Positions 6,377 through 62,730 of a DNA stretch of 64,000 bases are shown piece after piece (the stretch's first letter is position 1; each line of letters begins with the position of its first letter). The DNA is from Variovorax sp. MHTC-1 (GTDB taxonomy: Bacteria; Pseudomonadota; Gammaproteobacteria; Burkholderiales; Burkholderiaceae_C). The stretch is from positions 620,001 to 684,000 of the forward strand of contig NZ_RWKI01000001.1 in the NCBI RefSeq assembly GCF_003984645.1, given 5' to 3'. The position numbers and the translations under genes are program-made. Under the pieces are notes generated by a model, which made no database searches, was not told the DNA's origin, and worked only from the letters and a program-made list of their open reading frames with translations.

Positions 6377-6440
6377 GGGCCGACCCAAGGGCGGCTTGCG
6401 CCCCCTCGGGGGGCAGCGAACGAATGTGAGTGTGGGGGCC
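6377..6440 (+). repeat. dispersed GC-rich palindromic repeat, copy 1 (tctB-tctA junction)
   Basis: About 64 bases starting GGGCCGACCCAAGG, with a central palindrome CCCCCTCGGGGGG, then CAGCGA and ending GTGTGGGGGCC. It matches in order and spacing the copies at 40421-40496 (reverse orientation) and 50774-50854. It fills nearly the whole 81-base gap between tctB and tctA and ends just before the tctA Shine-Dalgarno, so it would form a hairpin in the tct mRNA. Confidence 0.75.
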
Positions 6441-39169: not shown

Positions 39170-40414
39170 ATGTACAACCGCAATATCCTGGTCGAACAGA
39201 CCGATCCCGAAATCTGGGCCGCCATCCAGGCCGAGCACGCCCGGCAGGAACAGCACATCGAGCTGATCGCGAGCGAGAACTATGCGTCGCCGGCCGTGAT
39301 GGCCGCGCAAGGCACGCAGCTCACCAACAAGTACGCCGAAGGCTATCCCGGCAAGCGCTACTACGGCGGCTGCGAGCATGTCGACGTGGCCGAGCAGCTG
39401 GCGATCGACCGCGTCAAGCAGCTGTTCGGCGCCGACGCGGCCAACGTGCAGGCGCATTGCGGCGCCTCCGCCAACGAGGCCGTCATGCTGGCCTTCCTGA
39501 AGCCGGGCGACACCATCATGGGCATGAGCCTGGCCGAAGGCGGGCACCTGACCCACGGCATGCCGCTCAACATGAGCGGCAAGTGGTTCAACGTGGTGAG
39601 CTACGGCCTCAACGACAAGGAAGAAATCGACTACGACGCGATGGAGCGCAAGGCGCACGAACACGCGCCGAAGCTGATCATCGCGGGCGCCTCGGCCTAT
39701 TCACTGCGCATCGACTTCGAGCGCTTCGCCAAGGTTGCCAAGGACGTCGGCGCGATTTTCATGGTCGACATCGCCCACTACGCGGGCCTGGTCGCCGCGG
39801 GCGTCTACCCCAATCCGGTGCCGCATGCGGACGTCGTGACGTCTACCACCCACAAGAGCCTGCGCGGACCGCGCGGCGGCATCATCCTGATGAAGTCGCA
39901 GCATGAGAAGGCCATCAACAGCGCGATCTTCCCCGGCCTGCAGGGCGGGCCGCTGATGCACGTGATCGCTGCCAAGGCGGTGGCTTTCAAGGAGGCGCTC
40001 TCGCCAGAATTCAAGACCTATCAGCAGCAGGTGGTCAAGAACGCGCAGATCGTGGCCGAAACGCTCACCGAACGCGGCCTGCGCATCGTGAGCGGCCGCA
40101 CCGAGAGCCACGTGATGCTGGTCGACCTGCGCGCCAAGGGCATCACCGGCAAGGAAGCCGAGGCCGTGCTGGGCAGCGCCCACATGACGATCAACAAGAA
40201 CGCGATCCCGAACGACCCCGAGAAGCCGATGGTCACGAGCGGCGTGCGCATCGGCACCCCGGCGCTGACCACGCGCGGCTTCAAGGACGAGGAGGCGCGT
40301 GCCACCGCGAACCTGATCGCCGACGTGCTGGACAACCCGCGCGACGCCGCGACCATCGAGGCGGTGCGCGCCAAGGTGAACGCGTTGACGAGCCGGTTCC
40401 CGGTCTACCGTTAG
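39170..40414 (+). CDS. glyA: serine hydroxymethyltransferase
   Basis: A 414-residue PLP enzyme. [20 protein letters not shown] and [18 protein letters not shown] are diagnostic. The PLP lysine lies in [16 protein letters not shown] near residue 229. It interconverts serine and glycine while charging tetrahydrofolate with a one-carbon unit. AAAGGAC precedes the ATG by about six bases. It is followed by nrdR; the gap is filled by a repeat element. Confidence 0.98.
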
Positions 40415-40420
40415 GAACAT

Positions 40421-40496
40421 GACCCCCACGCTCGGCACTGCGTGTCCTCGCTGCCCCCCGAGGGGGCTGCGCTCGCCTTGGGGCGGCCCGGCGCCG
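40421..40496 (-). repeat. dispersed GC-rich palindromic repeat, copy 2 (glyA-nrdR junction)
   Basis: On the minus strand it reads GGGCCGCCCCAAGG, then CCCCCTCGGGGGGCAGCGAG, GACACGCAGTGCCGAGCG and TGGGGGTC. It is nearly the same as the copy inside the aminotransferase gene (50774-50854), including the GACACG-CAGTGCCGAGCG arm. It fills most of the 99 bases between the glyA stop and the nrdR start. Confidence 0.8.
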
Positions 40497-40513
40497 AGCG
40501 CGAGGGCGGCCGC

Positions 40514-40957
40514 ATGAAATGCCCCTTTTGCGGTCACCTCGAAACGCAGGTCGTCGAGACCCGCGTGTCGGAAGACGGCGACTTCGTGCGGCGCCGCCGG
40601 CAGTGCGGCGACTGCGAAAAGCGCTTCACCACCTACGAGCGCCCGGACGTCAACTTCCCGGTCGTGGTCAAGAAGGACGGCAGCCGGGCCGACTTCGAGC
40701 CCAAGAAGGTCCGCGCCTCGATGATGCTGGCCCTGCGCAAACGGCCGGTGAGCATCGAGCAGATCGACCATGCGCTGTTGCGCATCGAGCAGAAGCTGCT
40801 GTCCAGCGGGCTGCGGGAGATCGAATCCACGAAAGTGGGAGAACTGGTGATGCGGGAGCTCAAGCGCATGGACAAGGTGGCGTACGTGCGCTTCGCTTCC
40901 GTCTATCGGAGCTTCGAGGACGTGGACGAGTTTCGGCAACTGCTGCGGGATATCTGA
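40514..40957 (+). CDS. nrdR: transcriptional repressor NrdR
   Basis: A 147-residue repressor of ribonucleotide reductase genes. The N-terminal zinc ribbon is [17 protein letters not shown] and [16 protein letters not shown] (two CxxC pairs). An ATP-cone domain follows ([20 protein letters not shown] and later). It senses ATP/dATP. The ATG at 40514 is set by the zinc ribbon; the frame runs upstream into the repeat. Its TGA is directly back to back with the pilE stop on the other strand (TGATCA). Confidence 0.96.
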
Positions 40958-41431
40958 TCAGCGCCAGCAGTCCTCGATCGCGACGCCGGCCTTGGCGTCC
41001 TTGATGTTTCTGCGCCCGACGTTGTCCAGTTGCAGCGTGCCGCAGCGATCGCCCTTCATCGAACCGGTGGGCGTGGCCTGGAGATTGAATGAGCTCGGCG
41101 TCAGGGAGTTCGTCACGAAATCGATCGCATAAGTCTGGGCGCCCTGCGGGGGCACGATTTTCAACTCGCTGGGCAGCGTCATGTCGGTGCCCGTGCCGAC
41201 CGCCCTTTTGAAACTGTCGTTCTGCGAATAGAAGCGCTGCATGTACTGCGCCGCTTCCAACAGCTGGGCCCGCGCCTCCGCGCGCCTGGACTTGCGGACC
41301 GACTCGACGTAGCTGGGATAGGCGATTGAAGCGAGGATCGCGACGATCGCGACCACGATCATCACCTCGATGAGAGTGAAGCCTCGAAGGTGGCGCATGG
41401 ATTGTTCAGGGACTCGCATGGCGGCGCTCAT
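40958..41431 (-). CDS. pilE: type IV pilin-like protein PilE
   Basis: A 157-residue prepilin. The prepilin peptidase site is RG|FTLIEVMIVVAIVAILAS, with the usual Glu at mature position 5, followed by a long N-terminal helix and a globular part ending with a Cys pair (GDRCGTLQL and AIEDCWR). The ATG at 41431 shares one base with the pilY1 stop (TGATG), which suggests coupling and gives a 17-residue leader; the ATG at 41398 would give a normal 6-residue leader. It is the last gene of the minor-pilin operon. Confidence 0.88.
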   Translation of the reverse strand: MSAAMRVPEQSMRHLRGFTLIEVMIVVAIVAILASIAYPSYVESVRKSRRAEARAQLLEAAQYMQRFYSQNDSFKRAVGTGTDMTLPSELKIVPPQGAQTYAIDFVTNSLTPSSFNLQATPTGSMKGDRCGTLQLDNVGRRNIKDAKAGVAIEDCWR

Positions 41432-43244
41432 CAGTACGCGGGAGGCGTTGCAATCTGCCGCCATTGCCGGCCGATGGGGGTTTTGCCCAGCTGGACCAGC
41501 TCGCTGGTACCAGCGCCTTCGACGCGAACCTGCGAAGAAGACCCGGCATCGGGCACGCCGACTATTGCCTTGTCGCCGATGGATCCATGGCTCGTGATGA
41601 CCGCCGCGGCGTTGTCCGCCGCAGTGATGTACCCGTCGCCGCTGGTATCGAAGGTCGGCCCGTCGCGCCCGGGCGCACCGGTGAACGGGTCCAGTACGAA
41701 GAGATAGCCGCGCGGTTCGGTGGCGGTACAGCCGGTGGCAGTGCCGCCGGGCACCATGGTGTCGAAGATCACGCGGCCGGAGTGCAGCTGCGGTTCGTAG
41801 ATCAGGCGCTGCCCCAAGGCGATGTTCATGCGAATCCTCCAGCCCCGCTTCTTCGCGTCGTCGCCCGCTCCATAGTCCACGCCGTTGTTGCTGAGGCCGA
41901 AGTAGTTGCCGGACGCGTCGCCGATGGTCAGCCTCTCGATGGTCTGCGTCACGAGCAGATCGTTGTCGGTGACGCGATCATCGGACTTGGCGGAGCTTGC
42001 TCCGACTTTCACCTTGTCCCAGACCCCGTACAAGGTCCGCTCCGACTGATTGTCGGAGTCTTCCCTTTCGAACAGCTTGCCCGATCCGGCCAGGACCATG
42101 AGGCCCCCGAGCGGGTGGCGCGTGACATTGGGCGCCGCGGTGATGGGCTCCGGCTCGCCTTTGCTGTTCGCGGCCTGGAAGAGCGGATTTCCGCCGAAGG
42201 CCACGCCCCATTCCGAAGCCGTGGGCGACGACAGGTCGAACTTCCACAGGTTCCCGTAGAGGTCGCCGGCAAAAGCGGCCACGATGCGCTTGGCGCCATC
42301 GCGCACCAGCTTAACGCCGCCAAGGCCGTTGGGCTTGTCTGTCGTTCCCTCACCGGTGTCGAGCACGGCCACGCGTGAGCCGGTTCGTGCGTCGATCATG
42401 TACAGATTTCTTCGCCGTCGACAGTGGTCGTAGGGCTGTTGATCGTGCCGTAGCCCACGCGGAACCCCGATGGCACATCGGCAAATGCTTCGGACGTACC
42501 GCCTATGGCGACCTTGAGGCGATTGCGCGCATAGGTGAACCAGTTCGAAAAGTTCTGTATTTCTTCTTTGTAGGTGCAGGTGTCGCCGGTGCAATCCTGA
42601 CGATTCGCGCTCTTCGGATAGCTGTTGTTGGAAGACGAGATCAGGACCTGCGTGTAGTCGGCCAGGTTCCTGCCCGTTGCCCCGGGCGCGAGCTGGTAGT
42701 ACTGGGCAGGCCAGAAGGTCTCCGCGCTGGCGCTCAGCTGACCAACCGTGCAGGCGGCAGTCAAGTCCTCGCACCAGAACGCGGTGACGGTCTGCGTCGC
42801 AACCAGATTGACCTTTGTCGCAGGATTCTGCGGATCGAGCGGAGCCTCGGTCTCGGAATACTCGGGAAACCGCAAGCCATCTGCCTTGAGCCAGGGTCGG
42901 TAGCGGATCTCCGGGTTGTAGTAAAGAGAATTGGTCCCGGCCGACCGTATTCGACGCGCAAACAACGAGCTGCTCTTGTAAGTCGCCACCGAGCGGCAGC
43001 AATCCCAATAGCCCCCCGCCGGATACCACGCCACGGCTCCTGCGACGACCCCGGGCACGGAGCAGATCGAGTCGGGCAAGCACTCGAATTCCATCGATCC
43101 TGAGTCGTCGAGCGTGAACATCAGATTCGGAAAAACCGAGGAGTTCGATCGCGTCAAGGGCACCTGCGACAAGCCTGCCCACACATTGCCCGCCACCAGA
43201 ACACCCGCCGCAATCACGGCCGATAGTCGAATCCAGGTTTTCAT
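41431..43244 (-). pseudogene. pilY1: pilY1, broken by internal deletion and frameshift
   Basis: The gene starts at 43244 with a fine Shine-Dalgarno (AGGAGGAACGAAG) and signal peptide. The first 282 codons match the PilY1 N-terminus (LMFTLDDSGSMEFECLPDSI) but end at a TGA at 42396 after TTTVDGEEICT. From about 42411 another frame gives the C-terminal beta-propeller (LYMIDARTGSRVAVLDTGEG, then AGDLYGNLWKFD and calcium-loop DTSGDGYITAADN) to 41431. The two parts are in different frames and the middle of a normal PilY1 (more than 1000 residues in all) is missing. PilY1 is the pilus-tip adhesin/regulator. Unless this is an assembly error, full-length PilY1 is not made. Confidence 0.8.
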
Positions 43245-43270
43245 CTTCGTTCCTCCTGTTCCTTCTCTTG

Positions 43271-43840
43271 CTAGCGCCTGCGCGTCACCGTGGACTGCAG
43301 CCACACCTCGCCACCCGCGTCGGGGGGGCTTGTCGATGTTGTTTGGTGGTAGTCGGCACTGAAGCCGATCGCGGTGATGAGGAAGGCATCGACCTCGGCG
43401 CCCTCGTCGCTGTCCAATCGCATCCGCTCGACCATGCAGCGCGGCAGCGCAGTCGACGGCAGCTTTCTTGCCGCGCTGTCTTTGGAGTTGACCATGGTGG
43501 TATCGATCGCGATCGCCTTGCGCACCCCGGGTTCCCAATTGGTCCGGTTGCTCCACAGCATCGGCGCGCTACCGTCCATCGGATAGGGAGCCGGCTGCAA
43601 CTCGTCGACGCCGCTCACGACCTTGGAATTCCTCAGCACTTGGTCTTCGCAGAAGCGCAGCGCCGTTTCCGCCGCCTGGAACGCCACGGTGTGCGTCCTC
43701 AAGGCCTTGGACACCTGCTCGCCGGAGGTCGCTCGGCGGATAGCCACGGTGGCGACGAGCGAGATCAGGACCAGCAGTACCAGCGCCAGGATCAGCACGA
43801 TCCCGCGCTCGCGAGCCATGGTTGCGATACGCGAGCTCAT
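43271..43840 (-). CDS. pilX: type IV pilus minor-pilin assembly protein PilX
   Basis: A 189-residue protein with a hydrophobic N-terminal helix (GIVLILALVLLVLISLVATV) and a globular part. The helix begins ARERGIVLILAL, as in PilX, and lacks the usual Glu5. The ATG at 43840 overlaps the pilW TGA by four bases. It is one of the minor pilins that start pilus assembly with PilV, PilW and FimT. Two cysteines (FCEDQV, RCMVER) may form a disulfide. Confidence 0.85.
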   Translation of the reverse strand: MSSRIATMARERGIVLILALVLLVLISLVATVAIRRATSGEQVSKALRTHTVAFQAAETALRFCEDQVLRNSKVVSGVDELQPAPYPMDGSAPMLWSNRTNWEPGVRKAIAIDTTMVNSKDSAARKLPSTALPRCMVERMRLDSDEGAEVDAFLITAIGFSADYHQTTSTSPPDAGGEVWLQSTVTRRR

Positions 43841-44802
43841 GGCGCGCCTCCCGCGAACCCGCCGCGGTTGCGCAGCGCGATGGTGCTGACGTAGGCGCGG
43901 CGGATCAGCCCGTCGCCGGAAAGTGCTGGCTGCCCATCGCAGTCGACATACTTGCCAGCACCCGCCGGATCGGGCTCGGCGCTGCGCATGAGCAGGCACA
44001 GCCGGACCGTCACGACGCGGGACCAGCGCTGATCGACGGTCCCGCCCAGAGCATCGACGTCGGCCGCCTTGTCGACGTACTGCACGACGTCGGGGCTCTG
44101 GCCGTCCGCAGCCAGGCCGTAGCGCAGCGTCATGTCCTCCACGTACTGCGTGATGGGCTGCGAGGCAAACGACGGTTTGCCGTTGCCGCCGCATGACAAT
44201 TCCGGCGTGCCGTTCGACTTGCTGACGCCGACAATGAAGCGGGACTCGACGAGCGGATACGACGGGTAAGAGTCACTCATGGCGCTTGCCGAGTACCGGG
44301 TTGCAGCGACGGCTTGGTCCAGGCAGTCGGTATTGGGCAGCAAGGCGCGCGCGCCGTCGCTACCGGCCTCGTCGGCACCTTCGAAGCGAAGCGCGAACGC
44401 GGCGGCACCGGTCGCCGCGTCGCTGCACGCGAGATCCTCGAACGCGGCGACGGTCGGATTCGCGAAGCCGTGGTCGCAGGCGCGGATGGCGGCACCGATG
44501 AAATTCCTGTCGGGCACGGAGACCAGCACCTTGTCGACCATCACGGCGCCGGCTGCCACGCTGCGGCGGGGAATGCTGAAGCCGGCCATGCGAAGCTGCG
44601 TCCCGACGAAGTCGAGCGCAATCGCCGCGTCCTCGTTCATCCGCGAGATCGCCGTGGCTTGTCGGCTGCTGGCGCCAGTGGAGAGATAGACGACGATCAG
44701 CGCGCCCAGCACCACGAGGCCGATCGTGATGGCGACGAGCAGTTCGAGCAGGGTGCGGCCCTGCGCGCGCGCAGAAGGCGAGCGACTTTCGATCTTCTTC
44801 AT
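43837..44802 (-). CDS. pilW: type IV pilus minor pilin PilW
   Basis: A 321-residue minor pilin. A short leader ends AQG|RTLLELLVAITIGLVVL, with Glu at mature position 5. A large globular domain with several cysteine pairs follows (AACDHG-like, LACSDAATG, LLPNTDCLDQ, VDCDGQ). The ATG at 44802 overlaps the pilV stop by four bases; an ATG eight codons earlier lies inside pilV. It takes part in pilus priming. Confidence 0.85.
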   Translation of the reverse strand: MKKIESRSPSARAQGRTLLELLVAITIGLVVLGALIVVYLSTGASSRQATAISRMNEDAAIALDFVGTQLRMAGFSIPRRSVAAGAVMVDKVLVSVPDRNFIGAAIRACDHGFANPTVAAFEDLACSDAATGAAAFALRFEGADEAGSDGARALLPNTDCLDQAVAATRYSASAMSDSYPSYPLVESRFIVGVSKSNGTPELSCGGNGKPSFASQPITQYVEDMTLRYGLAADGQSPDVVQYVDKAADVDALGGTVDQRWSRVVTVRLCLLMRSAEPDPAGAGKYVDCDGQPALSGDGLIRRAYVSTIALRNRGGFAGGAP

Positions 44803-45350
44803 ATGCTGATGCGGTAGTACATGCAACGCGGCCTGGGCGCGCCATCCTTGATGCCGGCCACCGCGCTAGCCGGGCAATCACGCGTCTCTCCAACGCGTCG
44901 GCCGACGTTGCCGAATTCGTCATCGGGGTCGATCCAGAGCAGCCAGACATCGGTTGCCAGGGGATTGATGGCATCGCGCTGGACATACGCATCGCCGCCC
45001 GGCAGGCGCTGTTGCAGTTCACCGATCCACTGCGCCATGTTGATGGCAGCAATTTCATCGACTGTGCAAGCGGTCTTGATCTTGCACGGAGGTGCCGTGA
45101 CCGCCGCAGTCGAGTACGCCGCGGCCCTGGCGTAGGCGCCCTTCTGGAAGGCCTGGACATTGCCGCGCATCCGCTCGCCCAGGTCCGCCGCCAGTGCCAT
45201 GCCGATGGACTGGTATTGCGCCATCTTCACGTACTGCTGCGCAGCCGCTGCCAGGCCCCCCAGGGCCAGCAAGCCGAAAGACATGACCAGGATCGCCACC
45301 AGCACCTCGAGCAGGGAGGCGCCGGCCTGGTGGCACGAACGTCTCGTCAT
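44799..45350 (-). CDS. pilV: type IV pilus minor pilin PilV
   Basis: A 183-residue minor pilin with leader QAG|ASLLEVLVAILVMSFGLL, a long hydrophobic helix and a globular domain containing GDAYVQRDAINPLATDVWLL. Glu is at mature position 5. Start and stop overlap with fimT and pilW by four bases each, so the three are translationally coupled. Confidence 0.85.
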   Translation of the reverse strand: MTRRSCHQAGASLLEVLVAILVMSFGLLALGGLAAAAQQYVKMAQYQSIGMALAADLGERMRGNVQAFQKGAYARAAAYSTAAVTAPPCKIKTACTVDEIAAINMAQWIGELQQRLPGGDAYVQRDAINPLATDVWLLWIDPDDEFGNVGRRVGETRDCPASAVAGIKDGAPRPRCMYYRISI

Positions 45351-45934
45351 GATGAACAGCTCTCGGTGCCGGAGATGAGCCGGACTCGCCCAACGAAGCC
45401 GACGCAGACGCCGCGCTGCAGTGACTCGTTGTTCGACGGCGACTTGAAGATGAAGGTCGAAGCGCCGTTCTTCAGCGTGCCCGTGGGCCTGAACCGGAGG
45501 CTTGCGTAGGTGCCCTGGCGGATTCCCCCGCTCTTGTTCAAGGCGCCTTGTACGCGCAGCAGGCTATCGCCGTGGATGGACTCGAAAGTGCCGTCGCCGT
45601 CGAGGTCGACGAAGGCCATCCAGCCGGCCTCCCAAGCCGGGTCCGCGCTGCAGGCCGGCGTAGCGCTCGTCGCCGCGTTGATACTGCGGCACAGGGTCAC
45701 CGGAAGCCCACGCCTGATCGCTTCGGCGCGCGCGTGGCTGATGGCGCTGACGAAGCTGTCGACGCTGTCCGCGACGCTGTTGCGCTCGATCAGGTTGCGC
45801 ATCGAAGGCGCCGCCATCGACATGAGAATGGCTGCAATGGCGATCGTCACCAACGTCTCGATCAACGTGAAGCCGCCTTGCCCCAAGCTGCGCCCGAATT
45901 TTTCTGGCGTTCGCAAGCAAAATAGTCGCTTCAT
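45347..45934 (-). CDS. fimT: minor pilin FimT/GspH family
   Basis: A 195-residue pseudopilin. The leader ends GQG|GFTLIETLVTIAIAAILMS. The GspH/FimT globular domain shows SVDSFVSAISHARAEAIRRG, then the conserved GWMAFVDLDGDGTFE. It is the first gene of the operon fimT-pilV-pilW-pilX-pilY1-pilE. The ATG at 45934 has a weak AGG Shine-Dalgarno. It is divergent from ribD, with an AT-rich gap of 192 bases between the starts. Confidence 0.87.
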   Translation of the reverse strand: MKRLFCLRTPEKFGRSLGQGGFTLIETLVTIAIAAILMSMAAPSMRNLIERNSVADSVDSFVSAISHARAEAIRRGLPVTLCRSINAATSATPACSADPAWEAGWMAFVDLDGDGTFESIHGDSLLRVQGALNKSGGIRQGTYASLRFRPTGTLKNGASTFIFKSPSNNESLQRGVCVGFVGRVRLISGTESCSS

Positions 45935-46126
45935 ACCTGTGCAATCCACGCCGACAGGCCGGCGCGAACGCTTCTCCCTTGCTCAAATCAATTCGGCGCG
46001 AAGTCTAATTTCCCAAAGCAATGCATGAATAAATCTTTCGACAAACGGATTGAATTGAAGGATCAACGGAAATTCTCGCTAAATCTGAACCAAATCTAAA
46101 TCCGAAGAATTGTGAATTGGCAGCCC

Positions 46127-47245
46127 ATGAATAGAGATATCCAGGCCATGGCCCAGGCACTCGATCTCGCCCGGCAGGCGAGCGTCGAAACGGAGCCGAA
46201 TCCCCGTGTCGGCTGCGTCCTGCTCGACGGAGAAGGCACGGTGATCGGTCGAGGCTCGACGCAAATGGCGGGCGGCCCGCATGCCGAAATCATGGCTTTG
46301 CGCGACGCCGCCGCACGCAATTGCTCGGTCAAAGGCGCCACCGCTTATGTGACGCTCGAGCCCTGCTCGCACCATGGCCGCACCGGCCCCTGCTGCGATG
46401 CATTGATTGCGGCCGGCGTCCGAAAAGTCGTGGCATCCATCGCCGACCCCAATCCCATGGTGTCAGGGCAGGGCTTCGAGCGCCTGCGCGCCGCCGGCGT
46501 CGAATTGGAAGTGGGCGCCGGCGCAGACGAATCGCGCGAACTCAATATCGGCTTCTTCAGCCGCATGGTCCGCAAGACACCCTGGGTCCGGCTCAAGGTC
46601 GCCGCCTCGCTCGACGGCAGAACGGCGTTGACCAACGGCATCAGCCAATGGATCACCTCCGAAGCCGCCCGCGCCGACGGCCACGCCTGGCGCGCGCGTG
46701 CCAGTGCCGTGCTGACCGGCGTCGGCACCGTGCTCGAAGACGACCCGCGGCTCGATGTGCGGCTGGTCCAAACGCCGCGGCAGCCGCATCTGGTGGTGGT
46801 GGACAGCCATTTGCAGACGCCGCCGGAGGCAAAGATATTCGGCGCGGCCCGGCCTGTCTGGATCTATGCCGCCAATCGGAACGAGGCCCGGCAGGCTGCG
46901 CTCGAAGCACGCGGCGCCACGGTCAGCTACCTTGCAAACCCACAAGGCAAGGTCGACTTGGCAGCCATGCTGCGCGATCTCGCCGCGCGCGAGGTCAACG
47001 AGTTGCACGTAGAGGCCGGCCACAAGCTCAACGGCTCCTTGATTCGTGAAGGCTTGGTCGACGAACTGCTGGTCTATGTGGCTCCCAAATTCATCGGTGA
47101 CGGGCTCGGCATGGCCAGCCAGCCGCATGCCGCGGGCGCGCTGACCGCGCTCGGCGATGCCTTGGAGCTCGAGTTCAAGTCCTTCGAGCAGATCGGGCCG
47201 GACCTGCGAATCGTTGCGCGGGTCGCCGGCCGCGACCGGTTTTAG
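46127..47245 (+). CDS. ribD: riboflavin biosynthesis deaminase/reductase RibD
   Basis: A 372-residue bifunctional enzyme. The N-terminal deaminase has zinc-binding HAE (GGPHAEIMALRD) and PCSHHGRTGPCC. The C-terminal reductase begins near residue 150 (VRLKVAASLDGRTALTNGIS). It converts the GTP cyclohydrolase II product to the ribityl pyrimidine in two steps. The ATG at 46127 is preferred over a GTG at 46112. It begins the plus-strand rib run. Confidence 0.95.
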   Translation: MNRDIQAMAQALDLARQASVETEPNPRVGCVLLDGEGTVIGRGSTQMAGGPHAEIMALRDAAARNCSVKGATAYVTLEPCSHHGRTGPCCDALIAAGVRKVVASIADPNPMVSGQGFERLRAAGVELEVGAGADESRELNIGFFSRMVRKTPWVRLKVAASLDGRTALTNGISQWITSEAARADGHAWRARASAVLTGVGTVLEDDPRLDVRLVQTPRQPHLVVVDSHLQTPPEAKIFGAARPVWIYAANRNEARQAALEARGATVSYLANPQGKVDLAAMLRDLAAREVNELHVEAGHKLNGSLIREGLVDELLVYVAPKFIGDGLGMASQPHAAGALTALGDALELEFKSFEQIGPDLRIVARVAGRDRF

Positions 47246-47289
47246 GATTTGCCCCCGGGGCGTCTTCGCATCTCTGCGAAAATGCCGCG

Positions 47290-47943
47290 ATGTTCACCGG
47301 AATCATTACCGGCGTGGGGCGCATCGCCGCCGTCCACGACCTCGGCAGCTCTTCATCCCACGGCAAGCGGCTCAGCATCGCGGTGCCCGACGGCTATCTG
47401 GCCGACGTGAGTCTCGGTGACAGCATCGCGCTCAACGGCGCCTGCATGACCGTCACCTCCCTCGACCCGGCGAATCAGCTCTTCACCATCGACATTTCGG
47501 CCGAATCGCTGGACAAGACGGCCGGCCTCGCCGAAGAAGCGGGCCGCGTCAATCTCGAGAAGGCATTGCGCGCCAACGACCGGCTCGGCGGCCACATCGT
47601 GTCGGGCCACGTGGACGGCATCGGCACGGTCAGCCATTTCGCGCCGGTGGGCGAAAGCTGGGAATTGCGCGTGCTGGCGCCGCCTGCACTGGCGCGCTTC
47701 CTCGCCTACAAGGGCTCGATCACCGTCAACGGCGTGAGCCTCACGGTCAACAGCGTGAGCGATGGCGCCGATGGCAGCGAGATCAGCATCAACCTGATTC
47801 CACACACGGTCGAGAACACCGCGCTCGGCAGCCTGAAGCAAGGCAGCCGGGTCAACCTCGAGATCGACACCGTCGCCCGCTACGTGGAGCGCATGCTTCA
47901 GGCCGGCGCCCTGCCCCTCCCTCAGAAAGACCCAGTCTCATGA
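47290..47943 (+). CDS. ribE: riboflavin synthase alpha chain
   Basis: A 217-residue protein made of two similar lumazine-binding barrels, starting MFTGIITGVGRIAAVHDLG and repeating near residue 100 (LGGHIVSGHVDGIGTV). It dismutates two molecules of 6,7-dimethyl-8-ribityllumazine to riboflavin and the pyrimidine. Its TGA overlaps the ribB(A) ATG by four bases. Confidence 0.95.
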   Translation: MFTGIITGVGRIAAVHDLGSSSSHGKRLSIAVPDGYLADVSLGDSIALNGACMTVTSLDPANQLFTIDISAESLDKTAGLAEEAGRVNLEKALRANDRLGGHIVSGHVDGIGTVSHFAPVGESWELRVLAPPALARFLAYKGSITVNGVSLTVNSVSDGADGSEISINLIPHTVENTALGSLKQGSRVNLEIDTVARYVERMLQAGALPLPQKDPVS

Positions 47944-49100
47944 ATGCCTCCGTCACGCCGATCACCGCCTCGCGCAGCGGCCGGGCGCCCGCGCCGATCT
48001 CCTCGGTCGAAGAGATCGTGGCCGAGCTCGCCGCCGGCCGCATGGTGATCCTGGTCGACGAGGAAGACCGCGAGAACGAAGGCGACATCGTGCTCGCAGC
48101 CGATCACGTGACGCCTGAGGCCATCAACTTCATGGCACGCCATGCGCGCGGCCTGATCTGCCTCACGCTCTCGCGCGAGATGTGCGAGCGGCTGCAGCTG
48201 CCGCCGATGGTGGCGCGCAACGGCGCCAAGCATTCGACCGCCTTCACCGTCTCCATCGAGGCGGCCGAGGGGGTGACCACAGGCATCTCCGCCGCCGACC
48301 GTGCACGCACCGTGCAGGCCGCCGTCGCGCCGAATGCCGTCGCGGCCGACCTGGTGCAGCCCGGCCACATCTTTCCGCTTCAGGCCGTCGACGGCGGCGT
48401 GCTGATGCGCGCCGGCCATACCGAGGCCGGCTGCGACCTCGCCGCCATGGCCGGCTGCTCGCCAGCGTCGGTGATCTGCGAGGTGATGAACGAGGACGGC
48501 ACCATGGCGCGGCTGCCCGACCTGCAGCTCTTCGCCGCCGAGCACGGCATCAAGATCGGCACCATCGCCGCGCTGATCGAGCACCGCAGCCGAACCGAGT
48601 CGCTGGTCGAAAGGGTAGGCTGCCGCGAGATCCACACCGCCTGTGGTTGGTTCACCGCCCATGCCTTCCGCGACAAGCCGAGCCACGGCGTGCACCTGGC
48701 GCTGGTGCGCGGCAAGTGGAACGCGGGCGAGACGGTGGACGTGCGGGTGCACGAGCCGCTGTCGGTACTCGATGCGTTGGAAGTCAACCGCTCGCTGCAC
48801 TCGTGGAGCCTCGATGCCAGCCTGGCCCACATCGCGGCCGAAGGCAAGGGCGTGGCCGTGCTGCTCAACTGCGGCGAGACCGGTGCCGAGCTGCTGTCGC
48901 AGTTCGACGGCACCGCGCGGCCTGCGCAGGCGCCGGAGCGCGGACGCATGGACCTGCGCAGCTACGGCATCGGCGCGCAGATCCTGCGCGAATGCGGCGT
49001 GCACAAGATGAACCTGCTGGGCACGCCGCGCCGCATGCCCAGCATGGCGGCAGGCTACGGCCTCGAGATCGCGGGCTACATCACGAAGGAAGAGCAATGA
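47940..49100 (+). CDS. ribB: 3,4-dihydroxy-2-butanone 4-phosphate synthase with degenerate GTP cyclohydrolase II-like domain
   Basis: A 386-residue protein. Residues 15-215 are a complete DHBP synthase ([49 protein letters not shown]). The C-terminal half has the GTP cyclohydrolase II fold but lacks the zinc cysteine cluster C-x10-C-x-C and the RxGRGIGL motif; the corresponding part reads [20 protein letters not shown] and [16 protein letters not shown]. It should therefore not open GTP, and a separate ribA is expected elsewhere. Similar proteins are known in proteobacteria as RibBX. It overlaps ribE and the minigene before ribH by four bases each. Confidence 0.9.
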
Positions 49101-49132
49101 AGAAGAACACGCACGCAAGGCAGGAAGCCTGA
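49097..49132 (+). CDS. 11-residue ORF linking ribB and ribH
   Basis: [11 protein letters not shown]. Its ATG overlaps the ribB stop (ATGA) and its TGA shares one base with the ribH ATG (TGATG). An AGGAAG Shine-Dalgarno for ribH lies inside it. It may keep ribosomes moving from ribB to ribH by reinitiation. It may equally be chance overlap. Confidence 0.35.
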
Positions 49133-49596
49133 TGCAGCACGCGAACAAGGGCAGCGATGTCGCGCTCGACGGCAAGGGCCTGCGCATCGGCATCGTGCAG
49201 GCACGCTTCAACGGAGACATCACCGATGCCCTGGCCGAGGCGTGCCTCGGCGAGCTCAAGACGCTCGGCGTCGCCGAGGCCGACATCGACCATGTCAGCG
49301 TGCCGGGCGCGCTCGAAGTGCCGGTCGCGCTGCAGGCGCTGGCCGAGCGCAGCCGCTACCAGGCGTTGATCGCGCTGGGCTGCATCATCCGCGGCGAGAC
49401 CTACCACTTCGAGCTGGTGGCCAACGAATCGGGCGCGAGCGTGAGCCGGCTCGCGCTCGACTACCGCATCCCGATCGCCAATGCGATCCTCACCACCGAA
49501 AACCTCGAACAGGCCATCGCGCGGCAGACCGACAAGGGCCGCGACGCGGCGCGCGTCGCAGTCGAGATGGCGCAGCTGCTCACCCATCTTTCATGA
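49132..49596 (+). CDS. ribH: 6,7-dimethyl-8-ribityllumazine synthase
   Basis: A 154-residue enzyme. [51 protein letters not shown] and [14 protein letters not shown] are the standard motifs. It joins the ribityl pyrimidine with dihydroxybutanone phosphate. It normally forms a 60-mer or smaller ring. Its stop overlaps the nusB start by four bases. Confidence 0.96.
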
Positions 49597-50126
49597 CTGA
49601 CGACACCAAAGAATCCAGCGGCAAGCCGCGCCAGTCCCGCGCGGGTCTCACCAGCACTGGCGCGCGCAAGGCCTCCGCCAAGTCGACCCGCAGCCGGGCG
49701 CGCGAGTTCGCGCTGCAGGCGCTCTATCAGCACCTGGTGGGACACAACGACGCCGCCTCGATCGACCAGTTCACGCGCGACCTGGCCGGCTTCCACAAGG
49801 CCGACGCGGCGCACTACGACGCGCTGCTGCACGGCTCGATCGCCGCCGCAGACCAGCTCGATGCGCTGATCGTGCCGCTGCTCGACCGCAAGCTCGAAGA
49901 GATCTCGCCGGTCGAGCATGCCGCGATGTGGATCGGCGTGTACGAATTCCAGAACTGCCTCGATGTGCCGTGGCGCGTGGTGCTGAACGAATGCATCGAG
50001 CTTGCCAAGGAATTCGGCGGCACCGATGGCCACAAGTACGTCAACGCGGTGCTCAACGGCCTGGCGCCGCAGCTGCGCCCAGCGGAAGTCGAGGCCGATC
50101 GCGCGAGCGGCAAGGCCAGGCCATGA
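49593..50126 (+). CDS. nusB: transcription antitermination protein NusB
   Basis: A 177-residue all-helical RNA-binding protein. After a basic, disordered N-terminus it shows [17 protein letters not shown] and later [18 protein letters not shown]. NusB pairs with NusE (ribosomal protein S10) on boxA RNA for antitermination of rRNA operons. The ribH-nusB order is very common. It overlaps the following aminotransferase by four bases. Confidence 0.95.
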
Positions 50127-51400
50127 GAATTTCCCGCCGCGCCGAGCGCATCGAGCCCTTCTACGTGATGGAGGTCGCCAAGGCCGCGTCGACGCTGGCA
50201 CGCGAAGTCGCGCACACCGACCGGCCGATGATCTTCCTCAACATCGGCGAACCCGACTTCACCGCGCCGCCGCTGGTGCAGGAGGCGGCCGCGCGCGCGG
50301 TGCGCGCGGGCGCGACGCGGTACACGCATGCCGTCGGCCTCGACCACCTGCGCGAACGCATCAGCGGCTGGTACCGCGAGCGCTTCGGCGTCGATGTGCC
50401 GGCGCGCCGCATCGTGGTCACGGCCGGCGCCTCGGCCGCGCTGCAGCTGGCCTGCCTGGCGCTGATCGAGGCCGGCGACGAGATGCTGCTGCCCGACCCC
50501 AGCTATCCCTGCAACCGCCACTTCGTGAGCGCAACCGACGGCCGCGCCGTGCTGGTGCCGACCACGGCCGCCGAGCGCTTCCAGTTGAGCGCCGCCAAGG
50601 TCGAGGCCGCCTGGAGCGAACGTACGCGCGGCGTGCTCTTGGCCTCGCCCTCCAACCCGACCGGCACCTCGATCGCGCCCGGTGAACTGCGCCGCATCCA
50701 CGAAGTGGTGTCGAAGCGCGGCGGCATCACGCTGATCGACGAGATCTATCTCGGCCTCTCCTACGGCGCCGCGCTGGGCCGCCCCGAGGAACCCGGCGCC
50801 CCCTCGGGGGGCAGCGAGGACACGTCAGTGCCGAGCGTGGGGGGCGAAAAAGACACTTTCGGGCAGACAGCGCTCGCGATCGACGACCAGGTCATCAGCA
50901 TCAATAGCTTCAGCAAGTACTTCAGCATGACCGGCTGGCGCCTGGGTTGGCTGGTGGTGCCGGAGGCGCTGGTCCCGGTGGTCGAGCGGCTGGCGCAGAA
51001 CCTCTTCATCTGCCCGAGCACCGTCTCGCAGTACGCGGCGCTCGCCTGCTTCGAGCCCGAAAGCATCGCCGAGTACGAACGCCGCCGCGCCGAATTCAAG
51101 GCCCGGCGCGACTGGTTCATTCCGCAGCTGGACGCGCTGGGCCTCCAGGTGCCGGTGGTGCCGGACGGCGCCTTCTATGCCTGGGCCGATTGCTCCGCCT
51201 TCGGCGAGAAGCTGGGCATCGCGAACAGCTGGGATTTCGCCTTCGAGGCGATGAAGAAGGCGCATCTCGCGATCACCCCGGGCCGAGACTTCGGCTCGGC
51301 CGAGACCGCCCGCTTCGTTCGCTTCTCGACCGCCAGCTCGATGGCGCACCTCGAAGAATCGGTGGAGCGCCTGCGCGCCTGGGCCACCGTCGCTGCATGA
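50123..51400 (+). CDS. PLP-dependent aminotransferase (class I/II) with an in-frame repeat insertion
   Basis: A 425-residue fold-type I aminotransferase. Motifs: [28 protein letters not shown], and the PLP lysine Lys265 in [19 protein letters not shown]. Between residues 217 and 245 lies a 27-residue Gly/Pro/Ser-rich insertion ([19 protein letters not shown] plus eight more) that interrupts the usual link between the [11 protein letters not shown] and [10 protein letters not shown] blocks. It is encoded by a repeat element (50774-50854). The insertion keeps the frame and lies in a surface loop, so activity may persist. The amino acid substrate is unknown. The gene overlaps nusB and ybgC. Confidence 0.9.
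50774..50854 (+). repeat. dispersed GC-rich palindromic repeat, copy 3 (inside the aminotransferase CDS)
   Basis: 81 bases: GGGCCGCCCC near the start, then CCCCCTCGGGGGGCAGCGAG, GACACG, CAGTGCCGAGCG and TGGGGGGC. It matches the reverse complement of copy 2 almost base for base, apart from the arm between the two conserved blocks. It is a multiple of three bases and free of stops in the gene frame. Confidence 0.85.
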
Positions 51401-61348: not shown

Positions 61349-62302
61349 ATGCCCAGCGCCCGTGATGTCCTGACGCCCGACGCCTTCGCGATGCTGCAGA
61401 CGGTGGTCGAGACCGGCAGCTTCGCCGCCGCCGCCCGCGCGCTGGACCTCGTGCCCAGCGCGCTCAGCTACCGCGTGCGCCAGATCGAAGACGCCCTCGA
61501 CGTGCTGCTCTTCGACCGCAGCGCGCGCCAGGCGCGGCTGACGGAAGCCGGCGTCGAGCTGCTGCGCGAGGCTTCGTGGCTGCTCGGCGAGATCGATGCG
61601 GTGGCCAACCGCGTCAAGCGCGTCGCGACCGGCTGGGAGCCGATGCTCACGATCGCGGTCGACAGCGTGATCGCGCGCGATCCGATGCTCGACCTGGCCA
61701 CCGCCTTCTTCGCGCTCGATCCGCCGACCCGGCTCAAGCTGCGCGACGAGACCCTGCTCGGCACCATCGAGGCGCTCACCAGCGGCGAGGCCGATCTCGC
61801 CGTCGGCGCCGTGCTCGACGCCTCCAGCCTCGCCTTCGGCGCCACCGGCGTCCGAAGCCGCCCGCTGGGCCAGCTGCATTTCGTCTATGCCGTGGCGCCG
61901 CACCATCCGCTGGCCCGCATCGAAGGCCCGCTCTCCGATGCCGTGCTGCGCCGGCACCGCGCGGTGGCCGCGGCCGACTCCTCGCGCACCGGTCCGAGCA
62001 TGACGGTCAATCTCGTGGGCGGCCAGGACGTGCTCACCGTGCCCACCATGCACGCGAAGCTAGCCGCGCAACTGCATGGCCTGGGCGCCGGCTTCCTGCC
62101 CGAGCCGATGGCGCGCCCCTACATCGAAGCAGGCCACCTGGTCGAGCGCAAGACCGAACGCGCGCCGCCGATCGGCACCATGCATTGCGCCTGGCGCGAG
62201 CGCACTGCCGGCAAGCCGGGGCGTGCGCTGAAATGGTGGCTCGAACAGTTCGAGCACGAAGGCACGCGTCGGGCGCTCCTTGAACGGCATCGCGGCCGAT
62301 AG
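61349..62302 (+). CDS. LysR-family transcriptional regulator
   Basis: A 317-residue regulator. The winged helix (residues 8-67) includes TGSFAAAARALDLVPSALSY and RVRQIEDALDVLLFDRS. The effector-binding domain (about 95-295) includes TIAVDSVIARDPMLDLATAF. It probably regulates the divergent pirin-doxX-flavodoxin-pirin genes in response to a quinone or redox signal, as is common for this arrangement. The start at 61349 is preferred over ATG 61313 because the latter places the palindrome inside the gene. Its TAG lies at the edge of the tandem repeats. Confidence 0.9.
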   Translation: MPSARDVLTPDAFAMLQTVVETGSFAAAARALDLVPSALSYRVRQIEDALDVLLFDRSARQARLTEAGVELLREASWLLGEIDAVANRVKRVATGWEPMLTIAVDSVIARDPMLDLATAFFALDPPTRLKLRDETLLGTIEALTSGEADLAVGAVLDASSLAFGATGVRSRPLGQLHFVYAVAPHHPLARIEGPLSDAVLRRHRAVAAADSSRTGPSMTVNLVGGQDVLTVPTMHAKLAAQLHGLGAGFLPEPMARPYIEAGHLVERKTERAPPIGTMHCAWRERTAGKPGRALKWWLEQFEHEGTRRALLERHRGR

Positions 62303-62672
62303 GAATGTGGCCTCCCGGCTTGCCACTTCGTGTGCTTCGCCACCTCCCGAGGAGGAGGCTCGGCCGCCTTGGGGCGGCCCGGCGCCGGCCGATAGGAATT
62401 GGGCCTCCCGGCTTGCCACTTCGTGTGCTTCGCCACCTCCCGAGAAGGAGGCTCGGCCGCCTTGGGGCGGCCCGGCGCCGGCCGATAGGAATTGGGCCTC
62501 CCGGCTTGCCACTTCGTGTGCTTCGCCACCTCCCGAGGAGGAGGCTCGGCCGCCTTGGGGCGGCCCGGCGCCGGCCGATAGGAATTGGGCCTCCCGGCTT
62601 GCCACTTCGTATGCTTCGCCACCTCCCGAGGAGGAGGCTCGGCCGCCTTGGGGCGGCCCGGCGCCGGCCGAT
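62301..62672 (+). repeat. tandem array, four units of 93 bp, of the dispersed repeat family
   Basis: Units begin at 62301, 62394, 62487 and 62580 and end at 62672. They are nearly identical; differences noted include AGGAATGTGG versus AGGAATTGGG in unit one, GAGAAGGAGG in unit two, and CGTATG in unit four. Each has CTTGCCACTTCGTGTG, a palindrome CCTCCCGAGGAGGAGG, and CCTTGGGGCGGCCCGGCGCC. The first unit starts at the LysR stop codon. No ribosome binding site or gene is seen within it. Confidence 0.9.
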
Positions 62673-62730
62673 GAATATTTCAAGACGGTTAGAGTTCTCC
62701 TTGATCGCCAACAGAAACGAGACCGCCAAC

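Follow-up and report, generated by a model that had tools for sequence, protein, structure and literature searches.

The nearest described relative of the repeat discussed here is probably the beta-proteobacterial repeat element (BRE), a little-studied, G+C-rich repeat of betaproteobacteria that measures 75 to 91 bp and occurs in tandem copies a few nucleotides apart (Hot et al. 2011, PMC3110155). In the accessible portions of that report, BREs lie mostly between genes, with some copies "entirely within coding sequences," and are many in Polaromonas and few in Acidovorax (PMC3110155). In its way of working, the repeat has its closest analogue in the Rickettsia palindromic elements (RPEs). As far as the available extracts describe them, these small palindromic repeats of Rickettsia are about 105 to 150 bp long with terminal inverted repeats, sit both between genes and in frame within many unrelated conserved genes, and are thought (Ogata 2000, 2002) to be compatible with fold and function (PMC10969869, PMC2229807). 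A further comparison is with the REP elements that carry a GTAG or CGTC tag and are 20 to 40 bp long. The accessible text places intragenic ones within coding regions of several species, often in DNA repair genes including that of the UvrD/REP helicase, and notes that their ends supply stop codons to flanking open reading frames (ORFs) (PMC3733652).

How does the repeat of Variovorax sp. MHTC-1 compare? The window (the whole stretch of DNA that was analyzed, 64,000 nt) contains an aminotransferase gene with a foreign stretch of 87 bp. This stretch is very probably a copy of a dispersed, hairpin-rich, nonautonomous repeat, probably BRE, that entered the gene in this lineage; copies at gene junctions would be harmless, and intragenic copies would be translated in frame as loops. 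The likeness to BRE is drawn from the published description, not from sequence. It extends to length, G+C richness, and tandem habit (here a 90-column consensus with 82% G+C from 125 aligned copies, following a first alignment of 30, and arrays of 2 to 6 copies with periods of 81 to 88 nt), to a mostly intergenic placement with some coding copies (here 19 of 116 sites in genes and at least 63 at junctions), and to a distribution rich in Polaromonas. With the window copy as the query and no more than 40 candidates scored in any genome, there were at least 17 to 48 matches in six Polaromonas and at least 3 to 11 in four Acidovorax/Paracidovorax, while one genome of Comamonas testosteroni gave 1 match and one of Curvibacter at least 37. 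Table 2 of the BRE report lists neither Variovorax nor Curvibacter, both of which carry the repeat here; its accessible text contains no reading frame analysis and no ATGA rule (described below), and the words hairpin, inverted, and duplication are absent from its main text as available (PMC3110155). A literature search, largely outside subscription papers, returned no reading frame analysis of the Variovorax repeat or of BRE. Searching with the element sequence returned no paper, and none of the papers returned by searches on Variovorax, Comamonadaceae, and repeats dealt with this one.

Going by the partial descriptions at hand, the repeat resembles RPEs in having in-frame copies in several unrelated conserved genes that are absent from orthologues, and differs from them in its ATGA junctions, its in-frame tandem amplification, and its hosts, which are free-living bacteria of another phylum class. 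Like the intragenic REPs it is also found inside coding regions, but its consensus is longer and is without GTAG or CGTC; the main text of the REP report, as accessible, mentions no Variovorax, Acidovorax, Delftia, or Polaromonas (PMC3733652).

A repeat-derived loop in an aminotransferase

The ORF that carries the insert matches Pfam Aminotran_1_2 and the PRK07337 family. Its AlphaFold (AF2) model, built with 43 sequences and having a mean pLDDT of 84.3, is matched by solved aminotransferases with a top TM score of 0.85 (by query length), and the predicted fold is that of an ordinary aminotransferase. In the DNA of eight relatives the site reads LS(Y/H)-D-x-x-(F/Y)-G, while the window has LSY, then 29 residues, then DTFG, so that the net gain is 28 residues. 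Read by pattern, the segment that bears the insert spans 68 residues in the window versus 40 in homologues. The preliminary description of this DNA had placed the insert at 50774 to 50854 and counted 27 added residues; the in-frame insert is real and the extra residues are confirmed, but the bounds move to those of Table 1 and the count rises by one. The features are collected in Table 1.

Table 1. Features of the window and in-frame repeat sites in five genomes
Feature	Position	Strand	Evidence
Class I/II PLP aminotransferase (PRK07337 family), 425 aa, intact, carrying the insert	50123..51400	+	ORF, families, AF2 model
In-frame repeat-derived insert, 87 nt, 29 residues (215-243), net +28 codons	50765..50851	+	Site DNA of 8 relatives, homologues without insert, AF2 pLDDT
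Intergenic copy of the repeat between genes called glyA and nrdR in the preliminary description (G000:C1:660423-660494)	40421..40505	-	Repeat search, BLAST
Hairpin H2, GCCCCC TCG GGGGGC	50798..50812	+	Copy alignments; coordinates counted on sequence
Hairpin H3, covarying, GG-a-CAC .... GTG-CC	50818..50832	+	Copy alignment; coordinates counted on sequence
ATGA overlap of nusB-like stop and aminotransferase start, empty here, repeat-filled in some relatives	50123..50126	+	Relatives' loci
In-frame sites, own genome: aminotransferase, TlyA, PEP carboxylase, FemAB-like protein (4 tandem copies), YheT-like hydrolase, ORF L020, Rep helicase, HrpA, XdhC-like iron-sulfur subunit, MurD, MoaE			
In-frame sites, G003: formate dehydrogenase alpha, alkanesulfonate monooxygenase (two copies), FemAB-like, TlyA			
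In-frame site, G023: alpha/beta hydrolase			
In-frame sites, G057: RecQ, HrpA			

Is the site empty in relatives? Among 60 same-genus genomes, 58 have an aminotransferase match (E below 1e-80; G022 and G037 have none), and in all 58 the match comes in two pieces, ending at residue 214 to 220 and resuming at 243 to 245. Of 111 sites read directly by pattern, 2 were the window's own; the insert is present in none of the other 109 homologue loci, some of which are one gene fetched twice. Nine of these 109 have 4 extra residues further on. Homologues lacking the residues, which the preliminary description had named as support, are the rule in both sets. A loop shared across distant families, the pattern expected of original protein sequence, was not seen, and the alignments of the four best PDB homologues likewise break at the insert. 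One Pseudacidovorax orthologue (L087) has, around positions 2142 to 2175, a loop 10 residues longer at the same site, starting with GAALG, which is perhaps a shortened, independent copy of the repeat.

What might the loop do to the enzyme? Lys265, which we take to be the PLP lysine, falls in an invariant alignment column. The pLDDT of the AF2 model drops below 50 solely at residues 217 to 244, nearly coincident with the insert. In the aminotransferase, the one protein modeled, the loop is therefore predicted to be disordered and the fold to be intact, and the insert is most likely a tolerated loop. Between the neutral surface loop and the altered enzyme that had both been considered at the outset, the disorder prediction favors the former, and the effect on the enzyme may be near neutral.

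The insert is known from one draft genome of 125 contigs, and both circumstances would suit an artifact of assembly or sequencing in which a repeat was misjoined into the gene. Such an error is nevertheless very unlikely: the net increase in length is divisible by three, there is no stop codon, the downstream half of the gene is intact, and comparable inserts are found in other genes of independent genomes.

The repeat element

The insert had originally drawn attention because 81 of its bases appeared to match the intergenic repeat between glyA and nrdR. BLAST bears this out, aligning the insert with the copy at 40423 to 40494 over 73 nt at 88%, as does a repeat search, in which 40441 to 40499 and 50766 to 50824 form an inverted repeat of 59 nt that is 83% complementary. 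The repeat has at least 54 BLAST matches in its own genome (40 of 144 candidates scored), the best, self excluded, with an E value of 2.1e-22. A 26-nt core, allowing up to 3 mismatches, gives 56 matches there versus 0 for a reversed control pattern. Core matches occur in 55 of 61 genus genomes (own included) and in 80 of 200 family genomes, and no match to the reversed control was listed among either set. These numbers bear on the idea that the loop is original protein sequence and resembles the repeat by chance. The longer loop in Pseudacidovorax, in the same place and with the same GAALG start, would fit such an origin, but the excess of core copies over the control, the missing insert in all 58 matching same-genus genomes, and the presence of the same repeat in unrelated genes make it exceedingly unlikely.

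The element is about 80 nt long and G+C-rich and forms three hairpins (H1, H2, and H3). H3 covaries: its columns 63 and 74 are G-C in 78 of 125 copies and T-A in 33, and are paired in 117. The arms of H1 vary among copies yet match one another, with a helix score of 16.4 versus 12.6 (standard deviation [sd], 0.24) when shuffled, a match reached in 0 of 500 partner shuffles (114 copies). H1 was tested by arm shuffling because its arms do not align, for which reason RNAalifold on all copies missed it. The H1 of the aminotransferase copy, ranking 69th of 114, is unremarkable. The predicted folding of the inserted RNA is likewise not unusual (−43.3 versus −41.2; sd, 3.6), nor is that of one junction copy (−38.3 versus −37.8); the glyA-nrdR copy is the only one of the three to stand out. 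Rfam gave no match at gathering thresholds across 40200 to 51200, and at E values up to 1 the insert drew a single, meaningless hit to an lncRNA and the glyA-nrdR copy drew no hit. Elsewhere in the window, four tandem 93-nt units of a related repeat, 67 to 75% like the glyA-nrdR copy over 51 nt, occupy 62293 to 62680 between a LysR-like and an oxidoreductase-like ORF (named by eye), and a partial element core at 6377 to 6419 has 22 nt identical to the aminotransferase insert.

Could the repeat be a REP element mobilized by a RAYT (Y1 transposase)? It is palindromic, has a high copy number, and lies at gene ends, and a Y1_Tnp gene is found in 58 of 61 genus genomes, as a single copy in 57 of them. 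RAYT genes, however, are described in the accessible part of one report as always REP flanked (PMC2817692), and a repeat copy was found in none of the 11 Y1_Tnp loci inspected (about 3.3 kb each, ~1.5 kb around; L164 and L189 to L198). Y1_Tnp occurs without any core match in five genomes (G026, G036, G037, G040, and G056), G018 lacks the gene and has 7 core matches, and by eye neither tag appears in the 125-copy consensus. RAYT mobilization is accordingly improbable. No cognate transposase was found for the repeat, and no movement was seen; copies would arise through some copying or transposition process.

In-frame copies in other genes

Sites were read with their flanks in the window's own genome and in four relatives, G003 (23 of 24 core matches), G023 (19 of 21), G057 (17 of 17), and G009 (8 of 11), which were picked among the genomes listed, leaving out the copy-richer G013, G005, and G027. 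With arrays merged, this gave 116 sites in five genomes, 54 of them from the own genome. Coding calls used a codon model trained on 16 window ORFs and a cutoff of 0.1 for the spanning-coding score, which was reached by 20 of the 116 repeat sites versus 68% of dummy positions in the window. The copies avoid genes, though they are not excluded from them. Four candidates were rejected as in-frame cases: L237 (score, 0.23) is the junction of two transporter genes, and L022, L238, and L202 score below 0.1.

In-frame intragenic copies lie in 15 genes, at 11 sites in the own genome and 8 in the relatives (Table 1); G009 showed none among the 8 core matches read. Family or PDB matches support 14 of the 15 genes. 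The ORF in L020 matched no family model and is reminiscent of ImuB. For TlyA, YheT, Rep, and MoaE, NCBIfam scores fall below the curated cutoffs, as expected when the match is split, and support comes from E values, Pfam, or PDB. The inserts of MurD, PEP carboxylase, and MoaE each interrupt the alignment to PDB structures, the one in MurD lying inside a longer unaligned stretch. Absence of the insert from orthologues was examined in five proteins (aminotransferase, MurD, FemAB-like, PEP carboxylase, and Rep) and borne out; some of the inserts recur in other species, as described below. Ten antisense copies share one reading frame, V-S-S-x-P-(P/T)-E-G, and the nine sense copies use two (6 and 3). 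The view that a repeat can be inserted in frame and become protein, put forward for a single gene, therefore generalizes to 15 genes in five genomes, and the other in-frame copies that it called for exist, with ten more in the own genome besides those of relatives. Repeats of such a kind are already known, but in-frame copies this numerous are unusual in a free-living bacterium, as these hosts are.

If repeats entered a gene at random, two of every three insertions would disrupt the frame. Where, then, are the broken genes? A frame test with flanks taken 12 to 42 nt from the element found coding flanks on one strand at 77 of the 116 sites: 14 were continuous in frame, 63 were two-frame junctions, and no broken gene was seen. 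Measured from the element edge, the upstream stop of the 63 junctions falls between −29 and +2 nt. Since the left end of the element can itself supply the stop, 20 of them (15 sense and 5 antisense) were checked with Pfam, and in every one of the 20 the element stands between two different genes that have domains of their own; the pairs include fliF-fliG, cheR-cheD, dctQ-dctM, an exbB-exbD-like pair, and ABC transporter pairs. Forty-one sites with both flanks coding but out of phase had been candidate broken genes and were rejected, having proved to be gene junctions. Outside the 116-site set, a FemAB-like gene of G008 (L289, G008:C1:3696654-3697962) carries the repeat twice and is broken: its second copy is out of frame and leads to stops. 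Under the preferred reading, a minority of copies would come to lie within genes. Nearly all of those observed keep the frame and contain no stop, which would follow from a G+C-rich sequence with most frames open and from selection, which presumably removes frame breakers. Each would be translated as a loop of about 24 to 29 residues between conserved blocks.

Gene junctions and the ATGA motif

Many of the surviving copies sit at the exact stop/start junctions of codirectional genes, often between duplicated ATGA motifs, an arrangement that preserves the stop of the upstream gene as well as the start of the downstream one. Of 30 sense junctions, 23 have a stop codon ending at +2, 27 have a start codon at +1 to +7, and 21 have both. 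The flank comparison covered the 83 sites, of 116, that hold a single copy whose ends are recognizable; 65 of them were scored as noncoding and 18 as coding. ATGA or TCAT occurs within 16 nt downstream at 39 of the 65 noncoding sites, upstream at 23, and on both sides at 21, compared with a one-sided background of 5.8% in random 16-mers of the window, which is lenient because junctions are richer in ATGA than random sequence. Words shared between the two flanks average 4.55 nt at these 65 sites versus 3.64 nt when shuffled (0 of 1,000 shuffles). The 18 coding-scored sites (L237 included) show no such signal (3.56 versus 3.54 nt; 514 of 1,000 shuffles), and intragenic copies therefore need not have shared the route of the junction copies.

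The junction just upstream of the aminotransferase provides empty and filled sites side by side. Of 88 loci, 84 have no element there (64 with ATGA and 20 with ATGC) and 4 are filled (L061, L063, and L033/L064, the last two identical there), with the element between two ATGAs; in L063 it is partly deleted. In two relatives' loci, L042 and L065, a repeat copy lies beside the other end of the gene.

History of the inserts across the genus

Once in a gene, an insert can be retained from species to species, multiply in tandem, lose part of its length in frame, or go missing again. The MurD insert is found in G015 and G005 among 34 other matching genus genomes; the remainder match in pieces or, in the loci read, are without the insert (G014 left out). 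The Rep insert has the same two carriers among 29 other matching genomes. That of PEP carboxylase is in G015, G005, and G008 among 30 others, with a shortened remnant in G003 and none in G013. On an unrooted tree of 2,079 codons, the own genome groups with G013 and then G003, and G015, G005, and G008 are in another clade. Set against this tree, the distribution suggests that some inserts are old and have since disappeared or become shorter in places, or else that gene exchange moved them; the patchy MurD and Rep inserts need losses or exchange. At the Rep locus of G008 (L267), the empty site has an AGC serine codon, like the left end of filled sites, in place of the TCN of seven other empty sites, and is possibly the scar of a precise loss. 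The FemAB-like gene has four 81-nt units in the own genome, three of 84 nt in G027, one each in G013, G003, and G002, and two, with the frame break, in G008. Its tandem growth has been mostly in multiples of three.

Are the inserts kept because they are useful, whether as regulatory hairpins in the mRNA or as loops that bind or tune the enzyme? Compensatory changes across copies keep the structure of the element, and in the MurD insert synonymous substitutions between species outnumber nonsynonymous ones (7:3, 6:1, and 6:2; the three pairs overlap). The TlyA insert, on the other hand, has 1 synonymous to 4 nonsynonymous changes (left flank, 10:6; right flank, 6:0), and that of PEP carboxylase has drifted besides being shortened in G003 and absent in G013. 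Unrelated proteins are hit, and AF2 predicts disorder for the one loop modeled. A retained function is thus unlikely, and an insert is most likely a tolerated loop.

A more specific proposal, to which we would give somewhat less than an even chance, is that of a mobile element suited to operons with densely packed genes. It would target overlaps of stop and start at ATGA and duplicate the motif, leaving both genes intact, its G-rich end serving as the ribosome-binding region of the downstream gene. With most frames of the element open, misplaced copies would become in-frame loops that amplify, shorten, and are now and then retained, and free-living bacteria would thereby keep gaining new stretches of protein. 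Such an ATGA rule, should it hold, would account for the harmless spread of a repeat through operons.

Overall, the filled and empty sites of close relatives show noncoding repeats becoming protein in genes of core metabolism, murD among them. Since related genomes may carry a given insert whole, shortened, or amplified, or may lack it, the genus is a natural experiment in which the cost or benefit of a new loop is directly measurable.
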